Below, piece by piece: positions 28,801-58,800 of a stretch of 64,000 bases of DNA (positions are counted from its first letter, which is position 1; every line of letters begins with the position of its first letter). Below the pieces are notes generated by a model. That model had not been told where the DNA came from and searched no databases. It saw only the letters and a list, made by a program, of their open reading frames with translations. This DNA is from Sclerodactyla briareus. Its lineage: Eukaryota; Echinodermata; Holothuroidea; Dendrochirotida; Sclerodactylidae. Position numbers and translations under genes: made by a program. The stretch lies in contig JAODTK010005689.1 of NCBI GenBank assembly GCA_026419785.1, positions 124,001 through 188,000 on the forward strand. The letters run 5' to 3'.

Positions 28801-31800
28801 GCCTGATAGCATGACTGCAAAATCATAACTCAGTGGGAACATTCAGGTCCATTGACTGACCTCAACAGGGAAATGAAATGAAGTCTCGATAGTTGAGTAG
28901 CATTGAGAACTATACTCTATGAGGTTGATACTCTTTGGCCAACTTGTCCTCACTTGTCATTCTAGAGATGCTGGTTTTCAATGCTAGTTCCACAAAAAAG
29001 TCTGAATGGTGATAAACAGTAAACGCAAACCCTGCATCCAATCTAAGCATATTTTCACTGTGCTTCCAACTCACCTTCTTAAGCTCATCTAATTAAATTA
29101 ATCTAATTAAATAAGCTCACCTAACTGTGTGTATCTGCTATGATTGGCAATCATCCAAAAATAAACGATAGGCAAAAAAAAGTGATTGCCCAAAGAGAAC
29201 ACTTGCACTTTTCTTGAATTTTTTTTTTCCTCATTTTTTCATGTAACTAACTGCAATGAACCTTGACGATAACTTCTTGTGATTTTCTCACAAAATTGTC
29301 TGCGCCCCCCCCCCCTTGGGAATTGTGCCATCTTATACCCCTATGCCATTGCAAGGACTGATCCTCCAATCTGCTCATACCCTTTAAATGACAAGCTGAT
29401 GTGACTGCCAAAGCATTTTCTTGGTGTATTACTCATGAGACGAGTGTTTGTGTCTGGCGTTTTCTTGCGAGATTGTCACATAAAAAAAACAAACTTGGTA
29501 GGCAATTAAATGGATCAATTGCAATAATCCTGCAGAAGTTGACTCTCTCCCGTGATGTTGGAGAAAGATGTGGCATCATTACCCATATTAGCATCGAAAG
29601 TTCTGTCTGTCTTCATTTTAGTCACCGGTAGCTTTCCCCAGCTGCAGAAGAGCTCAATAGCGGGAATATGTAAACAGTATTAATTTGACGCGATTAACTC
29701 CGCGACAAAGGGAAGAAACTGCCGAATGTCGTAGCTGCGATCCTCTTGCCTTTTGTCGCCAACCGTTTTGTTACTAACCCCCCCGTGAGTCACGGCCGTG
29801 TCGTGGTGTAACACTGTTAATCAACTCAAACAATTTGTGCCCCCAGAGTAGCAACTCTGGACGTTGTTTGTTTACTTTTGTCTTGACATTACTAACACAC
29901 TGTCTGCCTGACCACTTTAAGGTGATCTCTACCAAGGTTTTGGATTGCCTATCGCTCCAGGTTTCTCAGATGAGAGACGAGTTGGTCCCGAGTCAGATAA
30001 TGCACCATGACATCATTGACTGACTTCAGTGGTTTATTCGTCATTGACATTCTGGTATTGCACCAATTTGGGGTTGCTATCGGTAAACTTGAGATGCATA
30101 ATAGTCTTGCAAAACATATTGACGGTTTGTTTTCATTAGTGTGAAACTGGAGACATTCACTAACTGGTAAAAAAGTTTCTTCGTAATGCACTTGTCGTTT
30201 GCATGACACACCCGTAATACGTAATATAGTGGGTCATTATCAAATCCATAGTGACTCACATGTGACTCACTCTCCCTGGAGGGTCAGTCACAAAGCTGAC
30301 ACTGGTGTGCATCATTCCCTCGTCTTATGTACGTCATGGTACAGGAATTGTATGACCCACCTCTGTCTATGACTCACCCTGTCTAAGGTATAAGAAGGTG
30401 TGCAATAGAAGTGACTGAGAGGTGCGTCATTGTACAGGAATTGTATGACCCACCTTCTACTATGACTCATTCCATCTAGGGTATGAAGAGGTGTGCAATA
30501 CAAGTGACAAGTGCATATGCCTAACATGATTGAAATTTAGAATAAATCTTGATCTCACACAATTTTGAATTGCTATCTTCAGGGTAAAAATTTGCTAATA
30601 CTGAAATATCTTTTACAGGTGAACGAGGCAGTTAGCATCATTTCAATACAGCCATCTCTCACTACAACAGTAAATGATACTTCCGTCAGTCTATTCATCA
30701 CTTGATCACATTACGCCTATTCAAAGTGCCAAACATTGCTTACGATTCAGTTTCATATGTGAAATGCTCATCACATCAGCACTTTTGGTCGGGATGTAGC
30801 TGACCAAGCTTTTTTTTGTAGTATTGTTCAGGGTTTACATTAAGAAGAGAACAGAACAAAACCATAGTTCAGGGACAATTTTTGTTCAAACAGCTGTTTT
30901 GAAAAGCGCATTAATACTAGTTGTTTATTCATTCGATTTATTTGATTCAGCAACTTACACCATATTTATACTGCTATGCAAACACTTATCCTCACAAAAA
31001 ATGAACGTCCTTCTGTAACTTTGGTTTCTCCGAACTTGTCCGGACCAAATGTGTGCCTTTGCTCTATTGGAATCTGATGAACTTTGTGAGAAATTGCATA
31101 TGGTATGGAATTTGACCTAAGATGACTTCAAACTGACCAAACTGACTTTTGTCGGGACCAAATTGAATCTGACCATTTTTTAGCGCACCTCGATTATGGG
31201 GCAACAGCCTCTTTCAAACCAATCTGAGACTCTTTCTTGTGGTATACATACATGGTTCTCAAGCATAGATTGCTAACAATACACACTGAAAACCATGATC
31301 ACCCCCACCCCTTCCCCCTCTCCCACACGGGTATTTCATGGTAACTAGTCCTTCCTCATTGCTATGAAAAGCAACAAATCCCAGATACTGTCATGATAGA
31401 ATGTTTTGTCACTGTCAATCTGTACTCCTGATACAGATGCTGAGGTTCTCTTGCTTGTATATATGACTCTAATAAAACACCTCCTTCATGCAATTTCATA
31501 CCCAGAGGGCATTTACTACAGTTAGGTACCGTATTCATTCCGATAAGCGCCCAGGGCGCTTGCAAAGTTTCAGATGGGCGCTTACGAGAGTATAACTTTT
31601 TACCGATTATTTTTTACATAATATTATTGGGGAGGGCGAGTCGTAGAGACGGGCGGCGGGTGCACTGCATGTTGGAAAATCAGCGATAAACATTGTTTGC
31701 CTTCTCAACCTGTGGGCGATATTTTTTGAATGTGTGTTTACTTACATAGTGTTCCAATTTCGAGCACTTGACTGTTTGCCATTTTTGCAAGCATGTGTTG

Positions 31801-43800: not shown

Positions 43801-46800
43801 AACCAGAGAGAAAAAAAAAAAAAAACACCAACTGACAGCCCTGTCTTGTTGGACCTTTCACATAACAATGTTTTCTTGTGCAATCCAAGTGGCAATATTT
43901 GTGAAATTGTCCATTGACTCTCCATTACTCCGTACATTTTTGATACAATTGCCCAACATTTGAGTTGAATCTGCCTTTTCTTACTGTTTTTTGTACAGTA
44001 GCTGTTTTAAGGAAAGCATGGCCATACCCCCATTATATTTCAATCAAATCAGGTTGGGGAGGGGGGAGGTATCTTATTTGGGAGATTACCTATTGACTCT
44101 AATAATCCAATCATCCAGCACTTAAAATGAATAAATAAGACAGCATTTATAATGTGCCGTTCATCTAGCGAACTAATCCGAGGCGCAGATACGAAGGAAG
44201 AAAGACCCAAGTCCTGTGAAACACTCTCCTAAACAGGAAGGATTTCAAGTGAGATATGATATGTTGTTTCAGAGGTGCCATTCCTCAAACGAAGTGGCAG
44301 ATCTTTCCAAACCCTAGAAGCGGCAGTGGCAAACAAACGATTTCCATAAGTGGGATAGGACCTAGGAACAACCAGAAGAGATTTATAACAAAAACCTGAG
44401 CATACGTGCAGGGACATATGGAGTAATCAGAGTAGTGATGTACTCAGCGGTGTTCTGAACAAGTTGGAGCTTATTAGGATGTATATCAGGAATACCAAAA
44501 AGAAGGGAATTGTTGTTATCAAGGCGTGAGAGAACCAAAGCATGCATAATGACAAGCCGCCTGATCTGACAGCAATTTTGTGACTGAATTAATATTCCTA
44601 ATATAGGAATAAGAAGTCTGACATATTTTCCTCATTGATGTTCATATCTGAGGTTCCATCGTCACTTGAGATATCAACTTCAATTTATCACAGGGCAGCT
44701 ACCTTAGTAAAAATAAAACCAGTCCCTTCAATCAATTACTTGGATCACCACTCATGTCCAATCAAACAAATTTCATTTCTTTTGTGTTTCTTCATTTAGT
44801 CATACATGTTGAGGGATGCATCACAATCCCCTACCAGGCCCCCCTCCTACCCCCCCCCCTACCTCTGCTATATATACCCAATACATCCTCTGTGAGCCTA
44901 GTTCACTTGCCCTGGTGTTACTCTAGTTGTGCTAACACAGCGTCCTTCCACCTCCTTCTCGTATGAATGCTGCTGCCAATAACAGAGTTCTCAAACAAAA
45001 TATCAGAAATATGATCCCCACACCTTATACTTTATTATCCCCCCCCCCCATCCTGTAATTGATGTTATTCAAATTATAGAAACTGCTGCACATCATCACA
45101 ATATTCCTAATATAGGAATAAGAAGTCTGACATATTTTCCTCATTTGATGTTCATATCTGAGGTTCCATCGTCACTTGAGATATCAACTTCAATTTATCA
45201 CAGGGCAGCTACCTTAGTAAAAATACCAATTCCCTTCAATCAATTACTTGGATCACCACTCATGTCCAATCAAAACAAATTTCATTTCTTTTGTGTTTCT
45301 CTTCATTGAGTCCTACATGTTGAGGGATGCATCACAATCCCCTACCAGTCCCCCCTCCTACCCCCCCCCCTACCTCTGCTATATATACCCAATACATCCT
45401 CTGTGAGCCTAGTTCACTTGCCCTGGTGTTACTCTAGTTGTGCTACACACAGCGTCCTTCCACCTCCTTCTCGTATGAATGCTGCTGCCAATAACAGAGT
45501 TCTCAAACAAAATATCAGAAATATGATCCCCACACCTTACTACTTTATTATCCCCCCCCCCCATCCTGTAATTGATGTTATTCAAAGTATAGAAACTGCT
45601 TTGACATCATCACAATATTCCTAATATAGAAATAAGAAGTCTGACATAATTTCCTCATTTGATGTTCATATCTGAGGTTCCATCGTCACTTGAGATATCA
45701 ACTTCAATTTATCACAGGGCAGCTACCTTAGTAAAAATACAGTCCCTTCAATCAATTACTTGGATCACCACTCATGTCCAATCAAAACAAATTTCATTTC
45801 TTTTGTGTTTCTTCATTTAGTCATACATGTTGAGGGATGCATCACAGTCCCCTACCTGGCTCCCCTCCTCCCCCCCCCCCCCCCTCTGCTATATATACTC
45901 AATACATCCTCCCTGAGCCTAGTTTTCTTGCTCTGGTGTTACTCTAGTTGTGCTACACACAGCGTCCTTCCACCTCCTTGTCGTATGAATGCTGCTGCCA
46001 ATAACAGAGTTCTCAAACAAAATATCAGAATGTGATCCCCCACACCTTTTTTATTACTTTATTATTCCATCCATTATTCACCCCTCCCCCCCCCCTCATC
46101 CTGTAATTGATGCTTTTTGAAAGTACAGAAACTGCTGCACGTCATCCCAAGACCGGAAATTAATCCTCATCTTAAGATGAGATGGGTTCTGCCAATATTG
46201 ATCTGGACCAGAATGGATTTTTATTGAGTCTAATGCACTTATGACATTTTTAATATCAATATTCGAATATCATATTTGTCTCATAAATTTTGTTCGAGAT
46301 ACACCTGCTGAGAGAATATGTCAAACAATGGTACTTAAAAACTTATCTGACATTCACAGTTTGAGCTTCGGATTACTGTTAGGAGGAATTTGGATTCAAT
46401 TAACGTAACGAGAATATGGTAAGTTTGTAGATTCCCAGCAATACCTGGGAGTCTGCCAAATATTAAAAGCGAAATATGAGAAAAAAAGAGCGAAAATAGA
46501 CCTGTATGTGCATAAAATATAATCATATTAATATTGAGTGCTTATACTGCACTTCCCAACATTGTTATACATTATCAAAGCGCTTCACAAATATTACCCA
46601 GTCATTAGAACCAGTCTGCTCCTGAAACAACCCAAAGTAACTTGGTGCCATTTGCAGGGCCCAGGTTTTACTCATGATCCCCCACAGGTTCCCATGTATT
46701 GCCTGGGTAGGGGGAACATAAGATTAAGAGGAAAGTTGCCTTGCCCAAGGACGAACCAGAAGAGCTGATCAGTCCATTAAGTTTTAAATCAAATACAAAC

Positions 46801-49800
46801 GGGTAGCTTACAACAGAATTAATTTTAATATTGAATATTTATTTTACAGTTGGTATGGAGGGGCATTTCTCGACAGGGTGAGTAGGGGAATGGTAGAATG
46901 TGATTTGGTATGAAGAAGGTTATTGCATTGAGAATGACCACCATTCTGTGGCATAAGCACAAGATTTGGTGGTCAACCACTCCCTTCCCTTCGTGCATGT
47001 ATGTGACCAAAAATGATTTTAGCAGAAAAATTGTTTCACTGTACCTTTGATAATTGTATTGCACTGATATTACACCAAGTTGTGCTGGGAGCCAATAATT
47101 GCATTCACTTACCCATGGGAGGGAGGCGAGATGCCATTGATGAGAGTGTCCTCCTCCTGGGTCCCATCCTCCCACCCATCCCACCCCAAGACAAATCTCT
47201 CGGTATACCACTGCTGCCACTGTGTTTTCGTTTTGGTGAGATTTACCATGGGACTATTTGTTTGTGAAAATATAGCAGTATTTGTGATTTTTGCCTGCAA
47301 AGATTATTACAGAAGCTGTGATATTGCCTGAAGTGATAACTCCCAATTTTCATTTCTCACACGCATTCCATCGAAGCCATTCTGTTCTGAATCCAAGCAA
47401 AAAAAACAGAAGAACGTTGCCTCTGGGGTAACTGCCCACCTTCCTGCTTTCATCGAACAAGCAGCCATGTAGCGTCATCACCATACAGCTCGCTATAGGT
47501 GAAAGTCATTAATGTGCAATGATCAAATCAATGGCAGGAGTATAACAGCTTTGACGCTTGCTGCTTGGATTTAGGTGATGCGTTATCAATTATTCATCGT
47601 GATAGAAAAAATTATAGATCTGTTCGTGTTCCTCATCAAGTTTGAACAGAAGTGGGATATTCCCGGCATAGACCCAGAAATCAGTGTGTGCTCACATGCA
47701 ATCACAATCTTGATCATCTGAGAGAGGATGCTGGGGCATGTATGGATAATAACATTTATAATGGTATAAGGATGTGTACTTTACTCACAAATGTTACAGA
47801 ATGAGCTTGAATGTGTATACAAAAGTTATCGGCAAATAGCTGTGTCCTGCAGTTTCCATTTCTCGGGTGAAACAAAAATGAAACCAGAGCTAAGTGTATT
47901 TTTAAAGTGTTTGTAAAGTATGCAATATGAATGTTTTGTTCTACTTTAGCTGTCTACCAAATTTACTCTAGAAAAATCCCCCCCCCCCCCCGAGTGAGGC
48001 AGGGGGCGGGGGGGGGGGTGGTGGAGTGACACAGAAATAATTCTAATGAAACATGAACCACATGAGAACCCATGAGATTAGGGTTAGAGAATCCTGGTCA
48101 GGTCAAGCTGCTCTCTCATCGGATGCTCAGCAGATGGAGCCGGGAAGAAAAAAAAGCATGAGGGGTAGGCAACTTCCATGTTGCTGTGTGTGGGTTGATT
48201 ATCCCCACCTGCCAAGAGATTTGCAACAGGAAGTGGCATATCCAGGTCTGCCCCCTCTCGGATGGGTTCAATCATCTAAATAGCAAGTATAAAAAACTAT
48301 ATACAAACAATTGGAGGCTGTGGGCACCTTTTCATTATGCACCCTGTGATACTACAGACAGGGTGAGTCATTGTCAAAGGTAGTAGTAGTAGTAGGTCAG
48401 TCTGTCTCTCCGACATGCTCGTGAATCAACCTCACGCCATGTTCCGATCTTGCGGCAAATGGTATTGCTCATACCGCTTCCTCTCCTCCAAAAAACTGTT
48501 AATGTTGATGGCCCTGAATTGCGATTTGATTTTTCCGAGCAAGGTAGTCACGGGTCTCCCAACTGGCTTAGTATATGTCTCAATGCTTCATTGATCTTCG
48601 CTGGAGCTTCTTCTTGGAGTCTCGCGACGTGACCAAAAAATCTCAATCGTCTATATGCTACTACGGATGACCAAGGATTTGGTTGGGGGTCACAATCATC
48701 ATAAGTCATTGTTTGGTATCCAATTGTCATTGGTCCATATGATGTTGATAACATCGCGGAGTAGTCTTCTTTGGAAAGTGTCAATTTTGTAATAAAGATG
48801 TCTCGTTGTACCCCAGCAGTTCGGCCTATACGAAAATACTCTGTATAAGTGCATCGAAAATCCTGAGTTTGATGCTTGTTCCTACTCGTCTGCTCTTGAA
48901 AATTGTTGACAGAGCGTTGAAAGCATTGTTTTGTTGTACCAATTCTTCTTCGGTTCCCAACACATTCCTACATATTCACATTTCTTCCAACTTCCATTGC
49001 CATATCATGTAATTGAAAATTTCTCAGTTTTTGTGCTGTTTATTTTCATATTTCTTCTTGTCAGTTTCTCAGTCACTCGTTCTTCGATGTCTTGTAGTAT
49101 ATTTCAACCAGTTGCTGCCCAAGAGATATATAATCATCGGTATTGTTGGTCCACATGAAGAAGTTGTCCGGTGTTATCATTTGGCACGTAGTCATGATCG
49201 AGGTCATTTATTATTCATGATTATGGCACCTGTAGTCATTGGTCGAGGTGGTCTACCGTTATTACTAACATTGACTCCGCCTCACAGCCCTAGATGACTT
49301 AGATTGAAATGATGCGTTTTTTTCCTCCTTTTTTCGACATAATCTGAGTGAAATGACACACTCACCAGGGTCTCTTTCGACTGACTATTCAGGAAAATGG
49401 ACGGCACCTGTGAGTCACTTCAGGTTTGACAATGACGCATATTGACTGACCATGCTAGGAGTATGGGGGTGTTCCATGCAATTGTTGATGAGTGCATTAG
49501 AACCAGCAAGTTTGAATCTTAGGCACAGTACTATATTTAACCGGTCATGTTTTTCAATGTTTACAGCCCCAGATGACCCCCCACAGAGGGTCGTGGCCAG
49601 TGCTAGCGCAACAGACTCCATTATTGTAGAATGGCAGGTAAGTACCACCCCCCCCCCCCCCTCCCACCTCATCCATGAGTCTCTAGTCCACCTACTATGG
49701 GTGTCAGGATGATCAGTTTAGTGACACCAATGGAAAAAATGTCCGAAGTCTCTTAAATCTCTCTGATAGACTCACTCCAGTATAGGTCCAAACCAACCGA

Positions 49801-52800
49801 TCATCATCTAATGTGACTAGATGGGCAGGAAAGGGGGGGGGGGGGGTCATGAGCTGCAATGTCTGGCAATAGCTTTAAATCTCAGGAGACTGAGTAAGTT
49901 CAAGCTTAAAGTACTTCTTCAAAAGGATATGAATGCTGGTGGCACCCCATTTACCTTGATCAGTAGTTGGGATTTCTATGAGATCCCACTCCACCGAACC
50001 ATTGTCGACTAATAATTGCAAGCATTGCAAACCATGTCTTCTTTTATCTTATTGTTTTTCTGCCTCTGCATGTTCTCTACTGTGAGCTCCTCTCAGTCTA
50101 GCCATCACACTGTTGATTATGGCCGTACCATCTTAGCCTTATACTGCTGAGCCATGTCCCAAGATTAGAAATGTCATCACATCAGCAGGAGGTGCCAGTC
50201 CTCTCCCATTTGCCTCAACAATGAGTTGATTCGATTGGTGCTATCTTATCCCCACTCTCTCCAGGAACCTCCTGAAGACACATGGAATGGGGCTCTTCCT
50301 GGGGGACAGGGTCAGGCACCGCCTCTACGGCTACCCAAACGACTGGACCACCATGGACATCTCCAACGTCGACCAGAACCGGGTGTGTGGGTGGAAGGCT
50401 CCGTGACTTGGCAGAGGTACGAGATCCAGGTGGCTGCCTACAACAGTGCTGGGGTAGGCACCTACAGCGACTCTCTGAAAGAACAGACACTGGAAGGAGG
50501 TAAGGCATCAAGCATTGCTGAGGGCGGGGTGGGGGTGGGGGTGGGGTGACTAGTAGTGGCAGTAGACCTGTGGACTTGGCAGGGGTACAAGGTCCAGGTG
50601 GCTGCCTACAACAGTGCTGGGGTAGGCACCTACAGCGACTCTCTGAAAGAACAGACACTGGAAGGAGGTAAGGCATCAAGCATTGCTGAGGGCGGGGTGG
50701 GGTGGGGTGGGGGTGGGGGTGGGGTGACTAGTAGTGGCAGTAGACTGTGGACTTGGCAGGGGTACAAGGTCCAGGTGGCTGCCTACAACAGTGCTGGGGT
50801 AGGCACCTACAGCGACTCTCTGAAAGAACAGACGCTAGAAGGAGGTAAGGCATCAAGCATTGCTGAGGGCGGGGTGGGGGTGGGGGTGGGGTGACTAGTA
50901 GTGGCAGTAGACCTGTGGACTTGGCAGGGGTACAAGGTCCAGGTGGCTGCCTACAACAGCTCTGGGGGGTAGGCACTCTCAGCGACTCTACCAAAATGGA
51001 AGAGAGTACTTATTAGGCATTGCTGAGACAGGGAGGGGTGACTAGTTGTTGTTGTAGGCCTGTCCAGAAGGGTACCAACTCCAGGTGGATGCCTATAACA
51101 GCGATGGAGTAATCACCAACATAACTTTACAAGAACATGTAGTAAAAGAAGATGAGGTGTTGAAGGGGGGGGGGGGGGCACAGGGCCTAAAACACTGCTC
51201 TCTTTAACACCTTCAATAGGATAGGTACGAGAAGCGATTTGGAAATATTTTAGTTTACTTTGTGGACTTTTGTCTTCTGTCTTTAAAAATTGCAATGTTT
51301 TTCTTTGTGGACAATTTTTTCCTTCTTGGAGAAAGTTCATTAACATTTTGACATCTCTCTCATAAATCTTATCACAGTTCCCATCGAGTCGCCTAGGAAT
51401 GTTGACATCCAAGTGGTGAACTCGACAGCTATTTTGGTGAACTGGTCGCCACCTAATCCTTCCACTATCAATGGAATCAACCAGGGATATAAGGTAAACA
51501 TAGTAAAACTGGGCATTGGTTTGCTGGTAGAACGCCAACTTGTATATCCCCATAAAACTACAGCAGTTGGTATACATGCCACCGAATGGGGTCCCAGGGG
51601 ATTGATTACAATGAAGTTTGACACAAAATGTGCGCCAATTCTGGAACGTGCAAATTCTCAATCAAATCGTTGTAAAGGAAATGCCCGCAAAATGGGGTCC
51701 AATATGACGTGAATGAAAGTTGGTTCCAGAATTATCGCCATGTTTCAAAGTGTGCAAAACCCTGAAGAAGTGTTCATAACCCCAACTTGTGTCACAAATT
51801 CAAGGGGCTCCCATCTGAGTGGTGTAGAAATGCCCACCCTCAAACTCATCCCGAATTCACATCAGATGAATTTGTGTGTAAATTTCAAGTCAATACTGTT
51901 AAACTAAGGAATTCTCTACCAGATTCCGTAATTAGTTCTTTAACATCATCAATCTTTGAAGAGCGAGGCGCGAAAGCATGTATCAGCCGATATTGAATAC
52001 CTTACTTGAATAATTGAGAATATTTAGAGGATGGCTCTTTCTTTGGTTCTTTTGTTGTTGTTATTTCATTGTTTTGCTATTCTGTTTATAGGTGTATATA
52101 TATAGGTGTAGGGAGTGTTCTATCTTGATGTGCCTTCATCTGGCTTCCTTTCACATGTATCCAGGTCATTGTTACTATATGAAGATATATTGTATGTGAT
52201 ATAATAAATTATAGATGAAATGGAATATTATGGGTATTATAATGTAATTGTGACTATGATTTGCTCTTTTCTACCAGTGCAAACCTATGTAGCCCGCTAT
52301 GGAGGAAGATAGAATCGAAGTCATCGTTCCTTCAAGCCCGGGTATCAGGACTTTCTCTAAGACTGTGGGAGGCCTGAAGAAGACACCCAGTACGAGGTGA
52401 CAGTCCTCTGCTACACAAACCCTGGCAACGGCCCCCACCAGCACCCCACGGGAACATTCAGGACCAGTTCAGGAGGTACCCGGACCCGTCGAGAACCTGA
52501 GAGTGACCAATGTCCAGGCTACCTCACTAACCCTGGAATGGGACCCCCCAACTGAGGAGAATGGCATCTTGATAAGTGAGTAGAGTTACCTGTGAGATGG
52601 CTAGGATCTAGTGATGACCTAGCATGAGAGTGACTCATGTCCAGGCTACCTCGCTAATCCTGGAATGGGACCCCCCCCCCCCCCCCACCCACAACTGAGA
52701 AGAATGGCATCTTGAGTAGATGTTACCTGCAGGGTTAGCCCCTCAATTAGCCAACAATAGGATAGGAACAGCGAGGACATATAACCCTAGGATAGAACCC

Positions 52801-55800
52801 CTAAGACAGGAGTATGGCATCTCGACAATTTAGTCATGGTGACCCCATTGATCACCGCAGCCAATGAACTAACAGAGTTGAAGGTCTGCCACTGTAAGCT
52901 TAGAGTGAACAATTTCAAGGCTACCTTGCGCTCGCCCTGGGTTATTGACCCTACCACCCTGGACTCATATCCCAAACATAAAAGTGTTGCGCGGGTGAGA
53001 GTATATTTTTCATGAATAGAGTTCGAAAGATTGTTCCTCATACTGTTTGTGCAATGTTAGACTGGCAATGAGTCCGAATGACCTTTGACACTGTATATTA
53101 TCTTATGATTATATTCCAAATGTGATACTGCTTCATCACTCTTATACCACCATCATCTGTTGAATTATAAATTGATGGTGACTGATATTAAGGAATAATT
53201 TTGCTATGTTGCAAGTTACATCCTAGGTTTTGGCCAGCCTGCATTTGCTAGAGCTTTGGTTTTGCATGTTCACAGTACAGCAGAATTATTAAAAAAATAT
53301 TGAACTTAAGCGATAGTGTTAGTCAATATATTGATGGATTTATGTATAATATTATCTGTTATTCTATTCTCCAGATTACTGGGTGAAATACTTCCTGTCA
53401 ATGACACAAGTAATGAGGTGTCCTCTGAACTTGAGCCAGATAGCACACACTCCATGTCACTCAGCTGTCAAGCCAGACCACCTATTCATTCTCAGTGTGG
53501 GCGGAGACATCGGTGGGGGCTGGGGACATGCAGACTACTATCATCGGATCGGGCATCCCACCAGGTATGACCTCTCGCTTATGTCAGAGGGAGGGGGGTG
53601 CTAAACACCTATCTGTCCAGTAAGACCACCTACTTATTCCTAGTGTGAGTTGAGACATCAGTGGGGGCTGGGGACATGCAGACTACTATCATCATATCAG
53701 GCTTTTCACCAAATATGACCTGTTATTGATGTAGGGCAGGGGTGGTGGTGGTGGTGGGGTGCAATTCTAGCCACTTACCTGTCCGGCAGACCCTTCATTT
53801 CATTTCTGTTTCAACATTTGACATTTGTGGGGCTGGGGACTTGCAAACAACTGATTATGTCAGGCATCCCATAGGGTATGACCCTCTTGTAGCATGGAGG
53901 GGGGGGGGGGGGGAGGGGGGGGGGGCTGAGGGGGGATGCTCCACTGTCCAGTCAGATCCACATATTCATTTGTAGCATGGACACGAGAAATCTATGCGCA
54001 ACGCTGGGAACGTGACCCCCCCCATCAGCCAGACTGACCAAGGTGCCCCCAGGTCGTCCATACCCACAATGGAAAAGCACCCATTCATTATTCCTAGGCC
54101 TGATAACATTCCACGTGAGATATACAAATTCCAAAAGGCACTTCTGGTGGTCCTATTACTGTTTAAAGATGCGAATTTCAGATGAGCAATTGATGATATA
54201 TGTGACATCAACAGTGCTGCGTTAGTTTACTTCTATTCATATTTTTCCTCTCTCAGTGGTACCAGAATCACCGACCACTCCTGACGCTTATGATTCCAGT
54301 CGAGGTCCGTCAACTACACTTCACGCCTGGCTTCGATGGCCATGCCAGCATCTCTCTGTGGACAGTCGAAGCTCTGGTCGGCTCTGATACAGAATGGATG
54401 ACTGTGTTCACCATCAGCGCACCAGAGGCCAACAACTTTGTCATCACTGGCCTTAGGCCTACACAGCCTACACATTCAGGATGATAGCGACGAATGTAGC
54501 CGGGGACAGCCCACCCAGTGAGGTATCAAACAGCATAAACACAGAGCCTGATGGTGAGTGCAATAGAGTGGTTGGCCACAGTTTTGGTAGAGCGTCTGAC
54601 CTTCCAACCGGATAATAACCGAGGTATATTTCCCGGTCGACAAAAATCCTACCAAAAACCTTGAAAATGGTACCTGATGCCTTCTCGCTGGAAGTTCAGC
54701 ACAAGGGATTGGAAGCAGGAGACAAATGAGGGGTAGGCAATTGCAATTTGCGGTCTGCTGTGATTACCCCCCTCCTGCTGGGGCTTGAATAGGAACGATC
54801 CTTGCTCGCCCAGTTACCATAAAAAAAAAAGAGGGGGGGAAAAAAAAACAATACTGAACTTCACGGCCCTACATGGCCTACACATTCAGGATGATAGCGA
54901 CGAATGTAGCCGGGGACAGCCCACCCAGGGAGGTATTGAGCAGCCTGAAAACAGAGGCTTCGGCGAGTAGTAGAAACCGACTCTATAGGGAAATTGAATA
55001 TGCGTTGCTGCTTGCAGTTCAATAAGCTCAGTGTATTGTAAGGTCATTTGAAACGGTTACCATTAAGGAGAATCGGCAGTAGCTAGCTCAGTAGCAAAAC
55101 TTCACTGCAATTCTCTCACACTCAATACCCACGGAATAGGTCAAAGATGTAATCATTGTTTTCACACCAAAGAATGATTGCAGTTTGATTGCAGATCCTG
55201 GTCCGCAACTATAACGCTATTGGGATCACCTCAATTGTAAAGCTGCACCGGGAATTTATTGTTGTTTTAAATGCCAGTCCACACAGCATAAATTACTATC
55301 CAAGATTTAAGACTTGTGTTATTCTGAATGTATCAAGATAGAAAGGTTCACAGTCAGAGAGGCCCACACAGAGTTGTAACCAAGTACACAAAATTTTCAA
55401 GTCAAGTCGTATTCACCCAAAATATGGTGCTAGTCAAGACATTCAAGCAAGTCACTATATAAAGTCAATGGGAGCAAGTCACTCGGTTATTGTCAAGTCG
55501 CCAGCACTTTTCACCCAAGTCTCAAGTTGCGACTTGTTACAACACTGCCAACCAGAACTGCAACAAATAAATAAATTCAGCATTTTACTCCTTAAAACAA
55601 CAGTCAAATGTCAGAATTGTCACCTGATCAGTAAATTAACTGTAATTGGAAGCAATTTAGCCGGCACTAAATGTGGCTAGCAACGTCCCTGCTCACAGTG
55701 ACGTAGCTAAAAATACATGCCTGGACACAGCATCTCATGTCTATTATGGTTCCAATCTGATGTATTTAGTATCTCTACATTCATGGAGTAAGCAGCACTG

Positions 55801-58800
55801 ATCAGATTCTCTCGCTGAGTCCATAGATGAAAAGTGACAGGTAGCTACTTGGAAGTCTGTTGTGTGACCTAAGATCCCTTAGAGATCATTCCTAACTTTG
55901 AGGGTGCAGCCACTTGAGGGGAGGGGTCCAGAGGAGTAGAGCTATGGGTGGTACTGTGCTAATACATTACGTGCAGGGGCCCTGGTAAAGGTCCAAGGAT
56001 GGGGTGGGGGGGACTGGACACACCCAATCTCCAGTGGTTCTGCTCCTCTGATCTAACAGAGTGACAAGTTAATAGTTGGATGATTACATCGCCCATGTTT
56101 TGCTCAGCTTCCCAATGGCTCTTCTTTTGTTTCAGGCCCCGAGATAGCGCCTGGCAAGGTCAGCATCCGTGCCTACCAGCGAAAAATTCTCCGAGTCAGA
56201 TGGGTGGTGAGTTCACCATTTGTGTTAGAGTGGATCTGTGGAGGATGTACTCGGTGATCAAAAGAGTGTGTGAGGCAGTGAGAAGCCTTCTCGAGCCTCT
56301 CGAAAATGAGTAGAATCTATAAAATAAAAATGCAATGGAGGCTGATTGGTGTGGGTTTGATCTGACAAAATCTCTATCTTTGGGCCTTTACCTGCCTGGA
56401 GATTAAACAGTGGGCCTGTGATGACCTTTACAATTCATTTATTTGAGGGGGGTAGGACTGTCTGCTGATTTATGGTAGGATAGGTGAAAATGAAAGCATC
56501 AACCCAAAATTAAACGTTCAAGTGACCTTGTGGAATGATTGATACATTCATTGATGGTATGGAGTAGTCCTATCTATGACCATTCCGATTTGTTTCGTTT
56601 CGTAGCCATTGGCCGAGACTGACTGGAATGGGGTTGCCAGAGGGTACAGGATCGACTGGTTGAAGGTAGACGACCAGTCAGCCAGGACTCACACCCTGGA
56701 GGACCCCTATGGTAGTGAGTACATCATCACAGGGCTGGAGGAGTACACCGGGTACCAGGTCACTGTCAGGGCCATCAATGACGTCGGCGAGGACCATCAG
56801 TCTACCCAGCACTGTTCGGACCCATGAAGCTGGTGAGTTTGTCAATCTATTCCACATGATCTCCACCAATGTCCTTAAACTCCTACCAATTATGCACATG
56901 TCAATTGCTAGACGCACCCCTAGACCCCCCGAGTGTCCATCATGGTTACCCCATGGTCAGGAAAGTATTGACGCAGGGTACGTTAAGTCCATCAATGGTG
57001 AGTCCTGTTTGGGCGATAATGCGTTGGTTTGCGTCAATTTACGAATTTTGCGGAATTGGTGAGCACTGTACTTTCATTTTATGTTCCTATTTTCAACATT
57101 TGCTGTTTTTTCTTTACAGTACCTACTGCTGATCCAGAGGGCCTCACTGCCTCCGTTCCAGACCATTCTACCATCCAAGTGGCCTGGGGAGAAATCCCTG
57201 CTCAGGATAGGAACGGCATAATCATAGGCTACAGGGTAAGGGTTCCCTTCCTGCTCTTAATTTGTGGTGTGTACCGGTTCTATTGGCCTACGTAGTTTAT
57301 GAATAATGGCATTGCTGGAACATGCACATGATATATTCTAGAGAAGCGAAGCTAGCAACGGGCACGCAGGCGTTTCTTACATTCTAAGTGCTAACGAATG
57401 TTGCGCCAAAACCTGGCTTCAGAGGAACAGACGCATGAGTGTGTGTTTTTCTGTAGAGAATCTCGTAGCGACTTCAGAAGCGCTCGCAAAAATCGAAACA
57501 TGCATACTCTTTGAGTCAGTGCTTGATTTTGGGCGTTCTATGTTCAACAATCTTTTGGACGCGTTATGTTAGATACAAACATTTTTACTGACTTTGAAGT
57601 CAGTTTTTGGCAATTTAAATGACCATTTGTATCTTTTGATAACATTCCCAACAAAATTATGGAAAGTTGTTTTTCGTGACCATTGCACTTTAACTGCCAA
57701 CTTAGTAATTGTTTCAGAGGTTCTAATTATTCAATTATTTCTGTACCAAGGTGTTCTATCAAGATGCTGATGACCTGATGGCTGACCAGATGGAGCTGGA
57801 TGTTGATGGTAATGATACCATGGAGGTCACCCTTCAGGACTGAAGGGGTTCACTAGCTACACCATCATGGTAGTCGGGAGGACCAGAGTGGGGGCTGGCA
57901 TACCCACTGATGGAATCACAGCTAGGACCCTGGAATCAGGTAGTGTATGGGAGGGGGGGGGGGAACCTACCAGACCTTGGGGATGGCAGATCTGTACTGA
58001 AGAAGTGTTTTATTATCTCCAAGACGGCCTGACCACATGTAACTGTTCAATTCTTAAAATGACTGATTGGGGAAGGGGCCTAGCCCAGAACCTTTAGATA
58101 AGGTGCACATGCCAAGCCTTGAGATGACAGGTAAAAAGTGTTTGACTATTGCTAGGAATGGCCTAACTGCCTGTATCCTCTGGTCAATCACATGATTCGG
58201 TGAGGAACTTACCAGAGAACCTAGCAAAGAACCTTGAGGTGCACAAGCAGCACCATACAGGGCTGATGTTCCCTCTGCTCGGTTCATGGAGGAATCTCTG
58301 GCTGGTAGACTGCCTATCTTGTTCATCCAGGAGGTGTCCCAGCCTTAGTGGGATTATTGATAATGGAGAGGGCCCTTCCAGTTTAGGGAGCGACCTCTAG
58401 GACGAGACTCTTCACAGGAAAGTCAGGACAGGCCAATTTAGTTACTGGGCTTTTGAATGTTATCAATGTACCTTGATCCGCTAGGACATCAATCTAGGCC
58501 AGCCAGGTGACAGATGCAAGATGACATCTTGACCATTGTATTCTCTTGAAGAGGTGGCAGGGGAAGAAATCTTGTTGAACATTGCACCCTAGCATTAGCA
58601 TGATCCCACATCATGACAGCCACTGGTCACTTAGTAAACACTTTGTATTGAAACAACAACATCTGGAAGGGGATGCATGAAGGGCGATATACTCTGTTTC
58701 TCCGTTCATATACTCCTATCGATAGGTGTTATATTCATGAGTATTGTATTCATAAGTGCTGTATTCATGAGTATTGTATTCATGAGGTTTTTGTCTTTTA

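Follow-up and report, generated by a model that had tools for sequence, protein, structure and literature searches.

A tandem array across the 5' splice site of an FN3 exon, with further exon-end copies in the same gene, resembles the mirages of amphioxus

Amphioxus globin genes contain minisatellite-like duplications that cover intron/exon boundaries; these have been described as mirages, a name that goes back to work on Adh3 (PMC3087553). The genes reported to carry them are Adh3 and the globin genes BflGb6 and BflGb9 (PMC3087553), together with TnC and PGBD5 (PMC3902484). The repeat units measure 10-72 bp in Adh3 and 150-160 bp in the globin genes, with a 157 bp unit at the 3' exon boundary in BflGb9 (PMC3087553). 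In the globin arrays the inner copies are homogenised and the edge copies are excluded from homogenisation, one gene has haplotypes with unequal numbers of copies, and results obtained by RT-PCR suggest that splicing is undisturbed (PMC3087553). The published mirages come from cephalochordates (PMC3087553, PMC3902484). No connection of Sidekick with amphioxus-type mirages was found in the literature searched, in which few subscription papers were covered, and the word sidekick does not occur in the available text of PMC3087553 and PMC3902484.

The window analysed here is a stretch of 64 kb, all features of which are given on the + strand. A tandem array is present at 50405-51177 with a unit of 168 bases comprised of the last 95 bases of an exon and the first 73 bases of the following intron. 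TRF reported the interval 50405-50989 with a period of 168, 3.4 copies, 92% matches and a score of 990, and self-BLAST of the array returned E = 3.7e-177, which excludes a chance origin and confirms the tandem array of the FN3-2 exon end proposed in the initial annotation. Spacings of 168 and 177 bases were recovered with an ungapped repeat finder, and alignment placed the copy starts at 50405, 50573, 50750, 50918 and 51065 (c1 to c5), confirming the previously noted succession of 168, 177 and 168. The accompanying remark that all spacings are multiples of three carries no weight, since 177 is 168+10-1 and the divisibility is coincidental. Copying of the exon end was also recognised correctly in that annotation, but the exon portion is 95 rather than 94 bases and there are five copies rather than four, the additional copy being c5.

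The unit c1 (50405..50572) was delimited by TRF, the repeat finder and alignment. Relative to c1, c2 (50573..50749) has a 10-base G/T insertion and has lost one base; c3 (50750..50917) carries two silent changes. The next copy, c4 (50918..51064), is decayed and contains indels, while c5 (about 51065..51177) is the oldest detectable copy. Identities to the parent obtained by iterated alignment with shuffles were, by position, 93% for c2 with its flank, 92% for c3, 73% for c4 and 66% for c5. The donor GGAG|GTAAGG is present after 50499, 50667 and 50844 in c1, c2 and c3, and the homologous donor is gone in c4 and c5, in agreement with the earlier statement that the near-identical c2 and c3 retain both coding sequence and a GTAAGG donor. 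Up to position 50531, c1 and c2 differ only at 50415, 50421 and 50424, the differences underlying the reported change of R-Y-E-I to G-Y-K-V; beyond that position indels are found in the G/T tract and close to the unit end. Thus c1 to c3 are near-identical apart from the first bases of c1, and c4 and c5 are diverged. Since c4 has the c2/c3 version at the three sites, the first bases of c1 appear to lie outside the homogenised part. A G/T tract of the G-quadruplex type, identified by regular expression, lies just 3' of the donor at 50522..50546 and again at 50690-50724 and 50867-50891. The array is layered, with c2 and c3 young or homogenised and c4 and c5 old. Of the suggested young tandem duplication, the tandem duplication stands, and youth applies only to c2 and c3, if these are not simply homogenised. 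A DNA search of the 319-Mb assembly (3,171 contigs) located the array in one place only, including a match at 50919-51121 in the c4/c5 region. The GC content was 42%, and no Rfam match was found in the 64-kb window.

The array is very probably a minisatellite of the mirage type, a tandem duplication with a unit straddling the 5' splice site. It is a minisatellite-like tandem array, the unit spans the exon/intron boundary with the donor inside, and the unit length of 168 bp is slightly above that of the published globin units, compared with 157 bp in BflGb9. As in amphioxus, the inner copies are homogenised and the edges diverged, either exon end can be affected, the splice signal may persist in copies, and there is recurrence in several genes of the genome (PMC3087553, PMC3902484). 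The locus differs from the amphioxus cases in that four donor ends of one gene are affected within about 4 kb, with older layers visible. The host may also lie outside the cephalochordates: searches of the genome for the GFP family and for a lancelet-type GFP returned nothing, although an empty result of this kind carries no weight in itself. Searches for COX1 and innexin were likewise empty, and hits to HSP70, kinase and homeobox sequences gave no useful indication of the lineage. Two other systems invite comparison. Mutually exclusive tandem exons share with the array the duplication of coding sequence and donor within a gene; here, however, only the last 95 bases of the exon are copied, neither its acceptor nor its remainder being included, and the older copies decay. 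Intron gain via tandem AG/GT proto-splice sites (PMC3087553) likewise involves a splice site duplicated in tandem that could seed an intron or exon, but the present duplication starts in an exon and runs into an existing intron, and no new exon is evident.

The parent of the array is the second exon of the FN3-2 domain (FN3-2b, 50265..50499; donor GGAG|GTAAGG, phase 1), whose sequence looks like the latter half of an FN3 domain and which leads in phase via its own donor (donor 1) into the next FN3. The first FN3-2 exon (FN3-2a, 49567..49637), encoding the A-B strands, reads PDDPPQRVVASASATDSIIVEWQ and ends WQ|GTAAGT in phase 0 with an acceptor of 14/20 pyrimidines; no Pfam match was obtained for its 23 residues. 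The exon following the array contains the first half of FN3-3 (FN3-3a, 51378..51493, phase 1), and TLEG|VPIESPRNV continues from donor 1. With the Pfam fn3 cut-off at 25 bits, the two-copy frame of c2/c3 (25.6 bits) and exon FN3-6b (39.1 bits) scored above it, and the parent exon frame (13.7 bits), FN3-3a (22.1 bits) and FN3-4a (24.9 bits) scored below. An Ig exon upstream in the gene passed the Pfam I-set cut-off with 28.7 bits. The FN3 pieces run through 61 kb of the window and on into locus L015.

The known architecture of Sidekick is six Ig domains followed by thirteen FN3 domains, a membrane span and a PDZ-binding tail. FN3-5 matched structure 1wis, listed as KIAA1514 and which we take to be the fifth FN3 of Sidekick-2, with 63.3 bits at rank 3 behind two many-domain titin chains; the best single domain of those chains scored 22.6 bits among the matches listed. 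FN3-4 matched 1wfn, labelled 'sidekick 2', over all 99 residues with 54.7 bits at rank 6 behind many-domain chains. The FN3-2/3 query showed no preference for Sidekick, with receptor phosphatases and titin on top and 1wfn far down at 27.9 bits; we know of no solved structure of Sidekick FN3-2 or FN3-3. On the basis of the FN3-4 and FN3-5 matches combined with the domain order, the gene is probably that of the cell-adhesion protein Sidekick.

Local self-comparison of the sequence and a comparison of 13 hand-delimited exons of the gene with their flanks, the 5' starts being approximate in 3/13 and some exons of the window falling outside the set, revealed copies of the donor end downstream of four exons: FN3-2b, FN3-3b/4a, FN3-4b and FN3-5. 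Copies in the other three directions (3' end upstream, 5' end upstream and 5' end downstream) were found at none of the 13 exons. Iterated alignment against shuffles yielded 4, 3, 3 and 1 convincing copies respectively, short or weak later hits being left out of the counts. Downstream of FN3-3b/4a (52278..52575) three decayed copies at 52625-52738, 52782-52844 and 52896-52951 showed 73, 72 and 74% identity over different lengths, and for each of them 0/300 shuffles scored as high; that these identities are flat with distance speaks against the mirage-type reading. FN3-4b (53375..53564) is followed by three decayed copies at 53606-53747, 53772-53908 and 53939-54054 with 78, 70 and 63% identity, the first two having one stop each in the parent frame. 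The single copy of the FN3-5 end (exon 54257..54553, copy 54853..54974) is 83% identical, with the donor GGTGAGT changed to GGCGAGT. All three of these parents emerged from both the exon-flank test and the iterated alignment, and the four copy-bearing donors lie within about 4 kb of one gene (50499 to 54553).

Indel columns were present in 9/9 of the decayed copies and stops in the parent frame in 3/9. Substitutions at codon positions 1, 2 and 3 of these nine copies numbered 48, 31 and 58, a third-position excess with p = 0.017. Under strict neutrality of parent and copy alike a smaller excess would be expected; this mild one is explained by a constrained parent paired with an unconstrained copy. 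Among the six close duplications (<1 kb apart) detected in 34-64 kb, a rough estimate of enrichment at exon boundaries gave P of 0.0007 to 0.11 according to the margin chosen and to whether a doubling for detection bias was applied, a result that is suggestive only.

Boundary copies were also encountered elsewhere in the genome. The sample consisted of 37 FN3 exons in 13 loci, of which four represent one titin-like gene and one continues the contig of the window; FN3 hits with E > 0.01 or located <900 bases from a locus end were excluded. Donor-side copies were found at 3/37 exons (in loci L018, L019 and L026), and L017 has a fourth that scored at the threshold. On the acceptor side, copies were found at 6/37 exons; two of these are weak, and four, located in the duplicated L017 domains, seem to go back to a single inherited event. 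These results indicate that both exon ends are affected and that the gene in the window is not alone. At L026 7355-7894 an FN3 exon end is copied twice downstream, the donor GT having become AT in the first copy. The titin-like gene at L017 5322-9984 has FN3 exons duplicated at a spacing of ~1,050 bases with acceptor-side copies upstream.

One possibility raised in the initial annotation was that some of the copies serve as alternative exons and vary the F-G face of FN3-2, a reading that must now be considered extremely unlikely. Coding sequence and donor are both retained in c2 and c3, an in-frame product results when FN3-2a is joined straight to the CAG|GGG of c2 or c3, and four AG acceptors of c2 (exon starts 50554-50566) would produce an in-frame, stop-free cassette after donor 1. 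Pyrimidines, however, make up 5-7 of the 20 bases preceding these four sites, where nine genuine acceptors of the gene have 14-17, and for c3 the sites are out of frame. Across AG sites of c2 to c4 the count was 5-9, and for c5 it was 5-13. The earlier description of the spacer as G-rich and devoid of a pyrimidine tract consequently holds for c2 to c4; a better site, with 13/20 pyrimidines, is present in c5, although the c5 donor is gone, as is that of c4. An exon extended to donor 2 or 3 would be terminated in frame by a TGA, the 17th codon counted from donor 1, and insertion of c2 or c3 after donor 1 from CAG|GGG, a site with 9/20 pyrimidines, leads to a frameshift and a stop. Structural considerations suggest that, with a copy inserted, an already complete domain would acquire a second F-G hairpin, and that without the parent exon the C to E strands would be lost from the domain's middle. 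At other exons the corresponding copies have decayed. The copies are not each surrounded by a usable acceptor and donor, as expected of mutually exclusive exons, and neither reading frame nor coding constraint is maintained across them, with the frames of c2, c3 and c5 open. Poor acceptors, broken frames and decay were the grounds for rejecting alternative exons. The least clear case is c5, which has an open frame of at least 27 codons and the best acceptor-like site among the copies (13/20), whose exon start at 51068 would be in phase with donor 1; these features speak against a purely neutral reading. By arithmetic on positions, none of the GT sites listed for c5 keeps the phase. An elaborated version, in which the donor end is a recurrent source of copies that leaves a layered fossil record in each affected intron, and one layer (c2 via its weak acceptors, or c5) is a nascent alternative exon of a neural adhesion gene, the animal not being a cephalochordate, is a long shot. 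As judged from the sequence, splicing most likely proceeds from the first donor and removes the copies with the intron.

The remaining explanations concern the origin of the array and the state of the gene. A G-rich intron start forming an R-loop or quadruplex could be a recurrent duplication hotspot that pushes older copies downstream, which would refine the mirage interpretation and is not exclusive with it. We regard this as possible but rather unlikely: identity falls with distance in two ladders and many G runs follow the FN3-2b and FN3-4b donors, but in the 200 bases 3' of the donor FN3-3b/4a lacks any G run of >=4 and FN3-5 has a single one, copies were not detected at FN3-7b and FN3-12a despite long G runs, and ordinary exclusion of array edges from homogenisation would give a similar gradient. 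As a general cause, a quadruplex hotspot was set aside as inconsistent across the 13 donors. The quality of the assembly bears on two further readings. As assembled, the parent exon changes frame twice by eye, near 50292-50304 and near 50383, so that its frame is not reliable at face value, and apparent small frame breaks were noted by eye in the FN3-like exons at 50265-50499, 54257-54553, 56606-56832, about 57800-57850 and about 60233. The breaks in FN3-2b (two), FN3-5, FN3-6b and FN3-7b could mean that this whole gene copy is a pseudogene with the array part of its decay. That is very improbable since breaks of the same kind occur in the titin-like gene of the same genome (12 in 7,389 bases of FN3 segments by an automatic criterion), which led to its rejection as the main reading; furthermore, the breaks in the window are small indels, no in-frame nonsense substitution was noticed in the parent exons when inspected by eye and unsystematically, and the genome search with the array matched this locus alone. 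The automatic criterion found no breaks in the FN3 segments of the window or in L015, indicating that those in the window rest on the reading by eye. The frame breaks are probably assembly indels rather than signs of gene death. The same apparently indel-prone assembly, together with the near-identity of c2 and c3, leaves the number of near-identical copies uncertain and could be taken to mean that the array itself is a false tandem duplication or a collapse, the latter having been raised in the initial annotation. A pure artefact is nevertheless very improbable because the copies differ by 7 to 34% from the parent, spanning identities from 93 to 66%, and identical anatomy is found at other exons and on other contigs.

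The copies thus look like splicing-neutral, decaying repeats of the kind known in amphioxus and not spare exons. For a mirage-type origin of the array, a single duplication may have joined the last 95 exon bases and the first 73 intron bases head to tail, after which further unequal exchange, slippage or conversion would have added copies and homogenised them (c2, c3), and copies deeper in the intron would have decayed (c4, c5). Three other exon ends of the gene, and boundaries in further genes of the genome, are proposed to have undergone the same process. Since the first donor still ends the exon body, the extra copies would be intronic and spliced out, and the array would be tolerated by selection. 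Of these results, the most interesting is that layered copies recur at four exon ends lying next to one another. Boundary-spanning duplications are one proposed route to new introns and exons, and four layered arrays at neighbouring exon ends make order, age and effect on splicing testable in one gene. The copies also mimic true exon ends and can mislead gene prediction, a caution for annotation.

Other tandem repeats were observed on the same contig. In the window, 44591-46150 contains ~3 tandem copies of a unit of ~510 bases that are 89-92% alike, with stops in all three forward frames, and 30329-30508 contains two copies of a 93-base tandem repeat. Beyond the window, a large tandem array with a unit of ~120 bases, the copies being 92-96% alike, occupies L016 3219-5075.
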